DNA of 37,396 nucleotides from IMG/VR virus record IMGVR_UViG_3300042542_002303, positions 1 through 37,396 of that record; one strand, written 5' to 3'. Every line of letters starts with the position of its first letter. Position 1 is the stretch's first letter. The notes below the pieces were generated by a model, which ran no database searches, had not been told where the DNA came from, and was given only the letters and a program-made list of their open reading frames with translations. Origin of the DNA: a virus. Shown piece after piece: positions 1-16,194 of the stretch. The translations under genes and the position numbers were made by a program.

Positions 1-127
1 GTCGCAGGGCAGGGGCTCGGCAAGCCACAGAGTCGACAGGGTGCCACTACGGGCCGCGACAACCACCACCGGGCGGGCGCTGGACGAATCGGTAACGAGA
101 TAGCGCCGGCCGGCGACGATGGCGACC
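1..127. repeat. Terminal direct repeat (circular assembly overlap), left copy
   Basis: These 127 bases are repeated exactly at 37270-37396, so the contig closes into a circle of 37,269 bp. The repeat lies inside a protein-coding gene whose reading frame continues without a break across the join. An exact length of 127 matches the largest k-mer commonly used by de Bruijn graph assemblers, so I read it as an assembly overlap and not as a physical terminal repeat of the virion DNA. Confidence 0.93.
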
Positions 128-354
128 GACGCAGCAAGCGGGAGGCTATCGGCACCTTCTGGCACCGCGCCCTGTGTCGTCGTCGACAGCGGGTCGACCG
201 TAGCGGCGACGTAGGCCCCCAGAGCATCGGGAGACTGCGACGGGATGCGTCTCGCCGTCGCCGACGATGGAACGCCGGTCGACACACCGCCATCCGTCGA
301 CAAGCGCGGATACGACAGGATCGTGTCTGTGGAGCCGACCAGCACGCGCTGCAT
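1..354 (-). CDS. Neck / head-tail connector-like protein, N-terminal part (gene crosses the join)
   Basis: This is the first 118 codons of a 301-aa protein that continues at 37269 and ends at 36718. It begins MQRVLVGSTDT with an ATG at 352-354. No Shine-Dalgarno sequence precedes the ATG; a TATAGT -10-like element at 366-361 would start the transcript at or beside the ATG, so the mRNA may be leaderless. It is the first gene of the neck/tail module and follows a terminator (396-440). The part seen here is rich in Ser, Thr, Ala and Val, with no motif I can name. Its role as a head-tail joining or neck protein is inferred from its place between the gp10-like gene and the tail terminator and from its helical C-terminal half. 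Confidence 0.8.
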   Translation of the reverse strand, partial: MQRVLVGSTDTILSYPRLSTDGGVSTGVPSSATARRIPSQSPDALGAYVAATVDPLSTTTQGAVPEGADSLPLAASVAIVAGRRYLVTDSSSARPVVVVAARSGTLSTLWLAEPLPCD

Positions 355-13870: not shown

Positions 13871-13968
13871 TGTGCCGCACCATGCAGAGGGCCATCGTGG
13901 CCGAAGCCCGTCGCCGCAACCTGCCCGTGTGGGCGTTTCTCTTGCTCCTCGAGGTGACCCATGATTGA
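13870..13968 (+). CDS. Possible 32-aa microprotein
   Basis: ATG at 13870 overlaps the previous stop (TGATG), and its own stop overlaps the next start by 8 bp. The product has a basic first half (MCRTMQRAIVAEARRRNL) and a short hydrophobic run (WAFLLLLEV). It could be a membrane microprotein, or simply a translational bridge between its neighbours. The double coupling is the main support. Confidence 0.45.
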   Translation: MCRTMQRAIVAEARRRNLPVWAFLLLLEVTHD

Positions 13969-14179
13969 CCCCGACCGCTACTTGCCCGATCCCGGCATCG
14001 ACGACAGCCCCACCGACGCCGAGCTTGCCAGCGTCGCAGACGGCGTCGACGTGACCCGATGGGTGATGGATCTCGTCGACACTGGCGAGGACAGTGCGGC
14101 CCTGCTCCGGTGGGCGCAGGACTGCTACCGAGAGATCATGGATGCGGTGGAGCGTAACCGAGAGGAGCGTGATGCGTGA
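13961..14179 (+). CDS. Small acidic hypothetical protein (72 aa)
   Basis: 72 aa, ATG at 13961 with GAGGTGA upstream. Acidic and helical (DAELASVADGVDVTRWVMDLVDTGEDSA, then CYREIMDAVERN); no family recognised. Its end overlaps the start of the cytosine methyltransferase gene by 8 bp, which suggests translational coupling. Confidence 0.75.
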   Translation: MIDPDRYLPDPGIDDSPTDAELASVADGVDVTRWVMDLVDTGEDSAALLRWAQDCYREIMDAVERNREERDA

Positions 14180-15086
14180 GCTGGCTCTTTTCGCGGGTGC
14201 TGGTGGAGGCATCCTCGGCGGACATCTCCTTGGGTGGCGCACCGTGTGCGCTGTGGAGTGGGACGCCTACGCAGCCTCCGTCCTGGTTGCCCGCCAAAAC
14301 GACAAAATCTTGCCGCCTTTCCCGATCTGGGATGACGTGCAGACGTTTGACGGACGAGCATGGCGAGGCCGTGTTGACGTCGTGTCTGGCGGTTTTCCCT
14401 GTACCGACATCAGCACCGCAGGACGTGGCGCAGGCATCGACGGAGAAGCGTCCGGCATGTGGCGTCACATGGCGCGAATCATCGGTGAGGTACGACCGCA
14501 ATACGTCTTCGTGGAAAACTCACCGGCTCTTGTTCACCGAGGCCTTGCCCGAGTCCTCGGTGACCTTGCCGCGCTGGGGTATGATGCGCGATGGGGTGTG
14601 CTGGGAGCGGCTGACGCCGGGGCACCACACAGGCGCGACCGAATATGGATCGTTGCTGCCGACGCCGACTGCGTCGGTGATGGGAAGCAACACCACCATG
14701 CGACGTCACGGCCAGACGTTAATGAGTCGAGTGTTAATGTGGCCGACGCCCACGGCTCATTCTTGGAAAGAGAAAGGATATCCGGCGGAATACAATCGGA
14801 TGACTCCGGGGCTTGGATCAGTCGTGCTGAAGCCGCATTTGTGGCCGACGCCACAAGCGAGCGATTGCCGCAACAGAGGCAACGCGGACACACCGGCAAT
14901 CGCCAGACGAATCGAAGCTGGCAAGCAAATCACATTGACCATGACTGTCAGTGGTGGGCAACTGAACCCGACGTGGGTCGAGTGGCTCATGGGGTGGCCA
15001 ATCGGGTGGACCGATTGCGCTGTCTCGGCAACGGACAGGTTCCAGAAGTGGTGCGCCTCGCATGGCGCACGTTGATTAACGACTGA
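14172..15086 (+). CDS. dcm: C5-cytosine DNA methyltransferase
   Basis: 304 aa, ATG at 14172 after GAGGAG. The family motifs are in order: I (LFAGAGGGILGG), IV with the catalytic Cys (GGFPCTDIS), VI (FVENS), VIII (RRDRIWIVA), a variable target-recognition region, and X (LGNGQVPEV). It transfers a methyl group from S-adenosylmethionine to cytosine C5, probably protecting phage DNA from host restriction; no cognate nuclease is nearby. The target-recognition region contains repeated VADA units. The whole gene is also open in the +1 frame (14176-15075), where the translation matches another widespread phage protein type. Confidence 0.93.
   Translation: MRELALFAGAGGGILGGHLLGWRTVCAVEWDAYAASVLVARQNDKILPPFPIWDDVQTFDGRAWRGRVDVVSGGFPCTDISTAGRGAGIDGEASGMWRHMARIIGEVRPQYVFVENSPALVHRGLARVLGDLAALGYDARWGVLGAADAGAPHRRDRIWIVAADADCVGDGKQHHHATSRPDVNESSVNVADAHGSFLERERISGGIQSDDSGAWISRAEAAFVADATSERLPQQRQRGHTGNRQTNRSWQANHIDHDCQWWATEPDVGRVAHGVANRVDRLRCLGNGQVPEVVRLAWRTLIND
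14176..15075 (+). CDS. Overprinted +1-frame ORF inside the cytosine methyltransferase gene
   Basis: 299 codons, GTG start four bases into the dcm frame. The translation begins MSWLFSRVLVEAS and carries SSWKTHRLL, WGMMRDGV, three [LW]PTP[TQ]A repeats, and ends LNPTWVEWLMGWPIGWT then DRFQKWCASHG. From memory this matches a phage protein type that is common in databases and usually annotated as hypothetical or methyltransferase-like. It appears to be the alternative frame of dcm genes. It may be a real second product or a persistent annotation artefact forced by conservation of the dcm frame. Only an expression or substitution-pattern test could decide. Confidence 0.35.
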   Translation: MSWLFSRVLVEASSADISLGGAPCALWSGTPTQPPSWLPAKTTKSCRLSRSGMTCRRLTDEHGEAVLTSCLAVFPVPTSAPQDVAQASTEKRPACGVTWRESSVRYDRNTSSWKTHRLLFTEALPESSVTLPRWGMMRDGVCWERLTPGHHTGATEYGSLLPTPTASVMGSNTTMRRHGQTLMSRVLMWPTPTAHSWKEKGYPAEYNRMTPGLGSVVLKPHLWPTPQASDCRNRGNADTPAIARRIEAGKQITLTMTVSGGQLNPTWVEWLMGWPIGWTDCAVSATDRFQKWCASHGAR

Positions 15087-15524: not shown

Positions 15525-15676
15525 TCGCCCGCATCCTTGCCATCTTTGGCGTCCGTGTCGTCGACCTCGACATGGTGCATGTGCCCATCGACAAGTGGCA
15601 CGAAATCATTGGCGAGCGTGATCGCCTGCGTCTTGAGGTGGAGCGGCTGCGGTCGCTTGTGAGAGGTGGAGTGTGA
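15521..15676 (+). CDS. Small hypothetical protein (51 aa)
   Basis: 51 aa, ATG overlapping the previous stop by 4 bp. A hydrophobic start (IARILAIFGVRVVDL) is followed by a charged amphipathic helix with heptad spacing (IIGERDRLRLEVERLRSLV), likely a short coiled coil. Coupled to the adenine methyltransferase gene by GTGA. No family recognised. Confidence 0.72.
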   Translation: MIARILAIFGVRVVDLDMVHVPIDKWHEIIGERDRLRLEVERLRSLVRGGV

Positions 15677-16194
15677 GCGGCAAGCGCGGCAAACAGGACT
15701 GGGCAACGCCGCCCCACATCGTCGAGGCTGTCGCCGTCGACAGCTTTGGTGGTCGCCCATTCGACCTCGACGTCGCGGCCTACGCCAGCAACGCGAAAGC
15801 GCCCGCCTACTACGACCTCGCAGGCAACGGCATGACGTCGCTGTGGGCTGCGCCGCAAGTGTGGTGCAACCCACCCTACGAGAACCAGGGCGAGTGGATG
15901 GCCCGCGCCGTCTGGCATGCGAGGGAGTACGGCACCTCCGTGGCGTTGCTCGTGCTGGCGTCGACGTCGGCGCTCTATTGGCGACCGTGCGCGTGGGATG
16001 CCGGTACCGTCGACTTTTACGAGGGCCGTATCGCGTTCCTCGACGAGCATGGCAAGCAGCAACCCGGCTTCGACCGCGCTAGTGCGCTGGTGCTTGTCGG
16101 CCCTGCCTTTCGCCCCGGTGTCGTGCGAGTTCGCGACGCCTCGACAGGAAGATTGATTGATGGCGACAAACGATACCAACCCGGTCTGATTTGA
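15673..16194 (+). CDS. dam: Phage N6-adenine DNA methyltransferase
   Basis: 173 aa, GTG start in a GTGA overlap, with GAGGTGG upstream. The pattern fits the phage N-6-adenine-methyltransferase family: QDWATPP near the start, FDLDVAA with the SAM-pocket acid, the catalytic NPPY (VWCNPPYENQ), then LLVLASTSALYW and GRIAFL. The length is typical. It methylates adenine N6. With the C5 enzyme it gives the phage two different base-modification activities in one operon, consistent with restriction avoidance. Confidence 0.9.
   Translation: MSGKRGKQDWATPPHIVEAVAVDSFGGRPFDLDVAAYASNAKAPAYYDLAGNGMTSLWAAPQVWCNPPYENQGEWMARAVWHAREYGTSVALLVLASTSALYWRPCAWDAGTVDFYEGRIAFLDEHGKQQPGFDRASALVLVGPAFRPGVVRVRDASTGRLIDGDKRYQPGLI

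Follow-up and report, generated by a model that had tools for sequence, protein, structure and literature searches.

A cytosine methyltransferase gene in the viral DNA analyzed here is fully open in two frames, each resembling a known type of phage protein. This raises the question of whether the second frame is an overprinted gene or whether a large family of database proteins is an artefact of calling the wrong frame. The locus lies in a virus record of 37,396 bases, the whole of which we refer to as the window. We call the longer reading alpha and the +1 reading, which starts four bases later, beta. The two genes and their start region are as follows.

14163..14167, + strand: AGGAG, a Shine-Dalgarno-like site 4 nt 5' of the alpha ATG and 8 nt 5' of the beta GTG, which the two genes may share
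14172..14178, + strand: double start ATG-C-GTG (alpha ATG 14172-14174, beta GTG 14176-14178)
14172..15086, + strand: alpha, putative large subunit of a C5-cytosine methyltransferase, 304 aa (ATG at 14172, stop 15084-15086), with motifs I-VIII and X and without motif IX
14176..15075, + strand: beta, putative +1-frame subunit, 299 aa (GTG at 14176, stop 15073-15075), with the target-recognition region and motif IX (phrog_1008); it begins MSWLFSRVLVEAS and ends near LNPTWVEWLMGWPIGWT

An upstream ORF occupies 13961-14179, and its stop overlaps the beta start. Some 600 bases downstream of the gene pair, at window positions 15673-16194 (+), is a Dam-type N6-adenine methyltransferase gene (PF05869, 1.5e-22), so that the phage encodes both a C5 and an N6-adenine methyltransferase.

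The original prediction had pointed to a +1 frame open for 299 codons, and this openness proved to be far beyond chance. Upon shuffling of synonymous codons in the window alpha, the +1 frame stayed open in 0.95% of 2000 trials, with a mean of 3.1 inner stops. Relatives were gathered by alpha (80 loci), by beta (80 loci) and from genomes by alpha (8 loci). Removal of identical alpha genes ahead of counting reduced the 80 alpha-selected loci to 75 and gave 144 distinct genes for a pooled stop permutation, from which L001 was excluded. These 144 relatives contain 2 inner +1 stops versus 660.5 +/- 18.0 expected from synonymous shuffling within each gene, a ratio that is no p-value because the relatives are non-independent by kinship. 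The +2 frame of the same genes, which served as a control, was not depleted (2281 inner stops versus 1925.9 expected). Frame 2 therefore stays open more often than codon composition predicts, and the frequent stops in close dcm relatives by which the original prediction was to be judged did not appear: 74 of the 75 distinct alpha-selected genes lack an inner +1 stop, and inner +2 stops are present in all 75. Depletion of +1 stops was seen in every section of these 75 genes, with 0 versus 77.7 expected over codons 10-75, followed by 1 versus 120.7, 0 versus 43.0, 0 versus 71.3 and 0 versus 50.3. The exception, L006, has one inner +1 stop, and the near-identical L005 is open. The two differ there by one substitution that produces E115V in motif VI of alpha together with the stop in beta, such that a single change strikes both subunits.

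Family matches identify alpha as a C5-methyltransferase that lacks part of the enzyme. The window alpha matches PF00145 with 113.5 bits, passing the Pfam gathering cut-off of 22, and all 100 aligned alphas match it at E <= 0.001. Contrary to the original prediction, however, not all C5-methyltransferase motifs are in the dcm frame. The PF00145 match of the window alpha reaches only profile position 194 of 324, and the full set of motifs I-X is not found in this one chain, which carries I-VIII and X, with motif IX sitting in the +1 frame. The motifs, repeats and target region are listed here, with labels I (LALFAGAGGG), IV, VI, VIII and X on the window alpha being those we take these segments to represent.

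14181..14210, + strand: alpha motif I region, LALFAGAGGG
14382..14414, + strand: alpha motif IV, VSGGFPCTDIS, with the catalytic Cys, aligned to M.HhaI GFPCQ
14511..14531, + strand: alpha motif VI, VENSPAL, aligned to M.HhaI
14631..14657, + strand: alpha motif VIII, RRDRIWIVA, the final motif ahead of the dominant-frame change
14653..14676, + strand: beta repeat LLPTPTAS, beta residues 160-167
14658..14961, + strand: variable target-recognition region, with beta as the dominant frame and alpha predicted to be disordered
14737..14760, + strand: beta repeat MWPTPTAH, beta residues 188-195, read as VADA in the alpha frame
14839..14862, + strand: beta repeat LWPTPQAS, beta residues 222-229, read as VADA in the alpha frame
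14962..15012, + strand: beta motif IX, LNPTWVEWLMGWPIGWT
15012..15044, + strand: alpha motif X, RLRCLGNGQVP

All three of the [LW]PTP[TQ]A repeats originally reported in the +1 frame are thus present. Of the 75 distinct viral genes selected by alpha, 70 have the strict motif IX pattern in the +1 frame and none has it in frame 0; near-variants of the motif were read in the other five (L023, L048, L061, L065 and L074). The alpha of L048 stops short of motif X, and in the small relatives L003, L169, L181 and L186 the target region is short and IX is reduced. The window alpha matches phrog_363 (8.7e-66) and the window beta phrog_1008 (2.5e-35), both described as DNA methyltransferase. In alignments of 100 alphas and 100 betas, each taken from the 144 loci after thinning by identity and completeness, phrog_363 was matched by every alpha and phrog_1008 by every beta, which bears out the original statement that the two are separately annotated phage protein types. 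A Pfam search with the window beta alone matched no family, and a profile search of solved structures with beta gave nothing convincing, the best match (E 0.06) being an unrelated chain.

Structure models suggest how the parts of the enzyme may be divided. In the model of alpha, residues 1-172 are folded and confident, as is the last helix, and residues 173-286 fall below pLDDT 50. Compared with M.HhaI, 183 residues aligned (Z 19.9, rmsd 2.3), placing 1..304 on 12..321. Alpha is thus modeled as a catalytic domain plus the motif X helix, and in its frame the target region is predicted to form a disordered linker. For beta, the model was poor (mean pLDDT 56.2, pTM 0.25; better near residues 101-120, 131-150 and 261-299) and showed no fold. 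A structural search of BFVD with this low-confidence model gave as its best hit an entry named S-adenosyl-L-methionine-dependent methyltransferase (E 2.7e-05, 30% identity), on which we do not rely.

To determine which frame is selected where, we made use of the geometry of the +1 overlap, in which codon position 1 of alpha is codon position 3 of beta, and compared variability by codon position in 45 disjoint pairs of relatives with nucleotide identity of 0.75-0.98. Over alpha codons 1-163 (motifs I-VIII), position 3 was more variable than position 1 in 44 of the 45 pairs (reverse 0, tie 1). The order was inverted over codons 164-284 (target region and IX), where position 1 was the more variable in 42 pairs (reverse 2, tie 1), and over codons 285-304 (X) position 3 led again, in 35 pairs (reverse 3, ties 7). 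These switches indicate that the main frame is alpha over motifs I-VIII, beta over target recognition and IX, and alpha again over X, with the first change falling at approximately alpha codon 164. The same pattern was seen in a distant family of five ShroomBoi-like mycobacteriophage genes (L255-L259), where differences at positions 1/2/3 numbered 24/4/127, 40/14/0 and 14/0/55 in ten pairs that are non-independent. Over IX, three single-chain relatives show the most differences at position 3 (13/11/46), as an ordinary gene does. In the L260 group, the target region has 8 differences, all at position 2.

Synonymous sites provide further support for selection on the second frame. Over IX, third-base agreement at conserved four-fold alpha codons is approximately 98%, versus approximately 29% expected from codon usage, at an alpha identity of 55-85%; in a helicase control, which represents one gene family (35 genes), the third-base excess at similar identity was a small fraction. 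Suppression of synonymous sites in the +1 frame, which the original prediction had proposed as a check, thus exceeds what frame 1 imposes. In the N-terminal half of beta, with stop-forming sites omitted, the excess was approximately 0.5 for codons 101-140 at 50-80% identity and 0.3-0.4 for codons 5-40 at 65-90% identity. Codons 41-66 were mixed and codons 67-100 were close to the control, with no excess. This unevenness indicates that beta's own constraint covers only part of its N-terminal half. Overall, the +1 frame evolves under selection. An artefact, in which composition and repeats of alpha keep the +1 frame open and the database proteins are wrong-frame calls, could draw on the fact that single records often annotate one frame only and that conserved alpha residues force some +1 similarity. 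Chance openness of this kind is ruled out by the permutation, by the undepleted +2 frame, by alpha third positions that are frozen over IX and by position 1 being the most variable in the target region, and we give the wrong-frame reading practically no weight.

The start region is conserved as well. The beta start lies at +4 nt from the alpha start in 106 of the 144 genes (101 ATG, 5 GTG) and at -5 nt in 16 of the 144, and beta overlaps 92-100% of alpha in 141 genes. Among the 106 genes of the +4 type, alpha starts with ATG in 61, GTG in 32 and TTG in 13, and 86 have a Shine-Dalgarno-like site within 18 nt upstream. The usual arrangement of the paired starts in relatives is NTG-A-ATG. The alpha Asn codon that creates the beta ATG is AAT in all 119 genes with Asn at this position (expected 49.3), compared with an AAT share of 571 of 1317 Asn codons elsewhere in those genes. 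In L012, L028 and L043, beta starts 5 nt ahead of alpha with MSWLISK, and another start-like stretch, M-N-S-L, comes after it, an arrangement that looks like a duplication of the start region. Adjacent start codons (AUGUG or GUGUG) can yield translation of both frames in E. coli, as described in PMC9841429. Those double starts overlap, whereas the starts of the window are separated by one base (ATG-C-GTG).

These start sites bear on an alternative route to a second product, in which ribosomes start on alpha and a programmed +1 shift near motif VIII yields a transframe protein containing the target region and IX. Such a shift would be useful at about the place where frame dominance changes, and the second frame of the tandem relatives described below has stops further upstream, as frameshifting would allow. 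A shift, however, has no need of beta's selected start codon or of a +1 frame that is open across the N-terminal half, as it is in the 75 alpha-selected genes (1 stop versus approximately 198 expected over codons 10-140), and a product staying in the +1 frame would be without motif X. We therefore regard frameshifting as improbable.

The arrangement of motifs IX and X in relatives ties beta to the enzyme. We surveyed 68 loci, taking the frame of the catalytic PCQ as 0, and found IX in +1 with X in 0 (nested) in 28, both IX and X in +1 (tandem) in 5 and IX in frame 0 (single chain) in 6; in the rest, IX was in +1 with X not found (11), IX was not found (17) or IX was in +2 with X in +1 (one). 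The single-chain relatives L279 (phage PFR1), L282, L283, L284, L286 and L287 have motif X and a IX of the RFVEWMMG type, both in the catalytic frame. L279 matches PF00145 to position 312 of 324, and the single-chain IX-X stretch aligns with M.HhaI 271-307 (3.6 bits, which is weak taken alone). Beta IX and single-chain IX gave a short alignment of 24 columns (E 0.00018, probability 48-60%). Tandem relatives include Mundrea gp78/gp77, which overlap by 83 nt, Hoot gp84/gp83, which overlap by 179 nt, Float294 and KHumphrey. Relatives of the ShroomBoi and C72C1 type have stops near the beginning of the +1 frame, which is open over the target region and IX, so beta there must have an internal start, unlike in the window. 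A tree was built from 55 catalytic domains of the 68 surveyed rows after near-copies were dropped, with layouts labeled by pattern and 10 of the 55 unassigned. In it, single-chain and tandem forms are mixed in one supported group of 10, and nested forms lie on both sides of the midpoint. Outside these loci, a plasmid search with beta matched 4 records and the beta profile matched 8 of the 274 bacterial genomes searched (class of G001).

Several individual relatives deserve mention. L266, on a ShroomBoi-like contig (98% in the best segment), has an alpha truncated at 176 aa, and both IX and X are shifted by one base relative to its relatives, through either a single indel or a sequencing error. 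L312 601-1362, a copy in an E. coli prophage, has an internal stop and carries the annotation of a DNA cytosine methyltransferase pseudogene. In the single-chain gene of phage PFR1 (L183 529-1575), the +1 frame retains TP-A-type repeats in the initial part of the target region, and their persistence suggests that this enzyme arose by fusion from a split form.

It may still be asked whether beta, although translated, acts independently as an overprinted protein and is not a methyltransferase subunit. Constraint beyond that of alpha is seen outside the target region too, at codons 5-40 and 101-140, and beta alone found neither a Pfam family nor, by sequence, a methyltransferase structure, as such a protein might. 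Motif IX, however, is missing from alpha and present in beta, relatives hold IX either in the catalytic chain or together with X on a second gene, and dominance moves to beta exactly at the small domain of the enzyme. We consider a separate protein very improbable. Of the two possibilities first raised, the overprinted gene came nearer, in that the +1 frame is selected and its stops are rare, but the presence in beta of motif IX and the target region of the same enzyme speaks against overprinting by an unrelated gene.

Split C5-methyltransferases are known. In M.EcoHK31I (YGGCCR), the gene for the small chain lies within that for the large chain in a different frame, with an internal beta start, and the chains are 309 and 176 aa. 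The window beta likewise lies inside alpha in another frame (+1), but it is longer, at 299 aa, and covers almost the whole of alpha from a start only 4 nt downstream of alpha's. According to PMC3404938, the larger M.EcoHK31I subunit contains the predicted target recognition domain together with motifs I-VIII and X, and the smaller polypeptide motif IX only, and M.AquI (CYCGRG) is split in the variable region, with IX-X on the smaller subunit. In layout, the window shares with M.EcoHK31I a large chain with I-VIII and X but no IX, and IX on a second polypeptide (in beta's frame, with the strict pattern never in alpha's). The two differ in that predicted target recognition is on the large subunit of M.EcoHK31I, whereas the evolutionary signal here points to beta's frame. 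M.AquI, as described there, has X on the small subunit with IX, whereas X is on alpha here; its layout is matched instead by the Mundrea, Hoot, Float294 and KHumphrey relatives. Single-chain C5-methyltransferases (PF00145; M.HhaI; PFR1-like phage enzymes) have a catalytic domain homologous to alpha, which aligns with M.HhaI, but hold in the catalytic chain the motif IX that is absent from the window alpha. The window locus is thus a variant of the M.EcoHK31I precedent in which beta overlaps nearly all of alpha and the starts are nearly shared. Among the results listed by our searches of open-licence literature there was no description of overlapping alpha/beta phage methyltransferases, which does not imply that none exists.

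Taken together, the locus very probably specifies a single, split C5-cytosine DNA methyltransferase in two frames of nearly the same extent, a reading supported by the switch of frame dominance from alpha to beta and back where the parts of the enzyme change. Selection on its frame argues that beta is a real polypeptide. Ribosomes would initiate at both start codons, which lie 4 nt apart and would use a single Shine-Dalgarno site. Alpha would form the catalytic domain that binds AdoMet, with the motif X helix at its C-terminus docked onto it and the variable stretch serving as a disordered linker, and beta would provide the small domain with target recognition and motif IX. DNA would then be methylated by the alpha-beta pair only, and general phage biology suggests modification of phage DNA against host restriction as the likely role. 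It is also possible, though we place it a shade short of probable, that the whole enzyme is dual-coded end to end, with the main frame switching twice and the N-terminal half of beta being a conserved part of the second subunit with its own function, for instance docking to alpha from the same start site or fixing the chain ratio.

Since the two frames appear to encode two halves of one DNA-methylating enzyme, both database families are probably real and neither is an error. The suspicion of an artefact fails for the families, whose +1 frame is selected, and has substance at the level of single records, which often miss half of the enzyme. Alpha alone is annotated in Acinetobacter phage ABMM1 (vB_AbaM_ABMM1) and beta alone in Pseudomonas phage phPA-G. 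In Acidovorax phage Alfacinha1 beta is annotated and named cytosine-specific methyltransferase, and in all four tandem phages examined (Mundrea, Hoot, Float294 and KHumphrey) both genes are annotated. A split enzyme would explain how two unrelated-looking families of phage 'DNA methyltransferase' come from one stretch of DNA, and would imply that in many genomes gene callers omit half an enzyme. Split C5-methyltransferases are also tools for targeted methylation, and if such a gene is recoded or cloned with only one frame in view, the partner subunit would be destroyed. The family would represent a widespread natural case of one DNA sequence giving two subunits of one enzyme, in which single-chain, tandem and nested relatives may allow the origin of the overlap to be traced.
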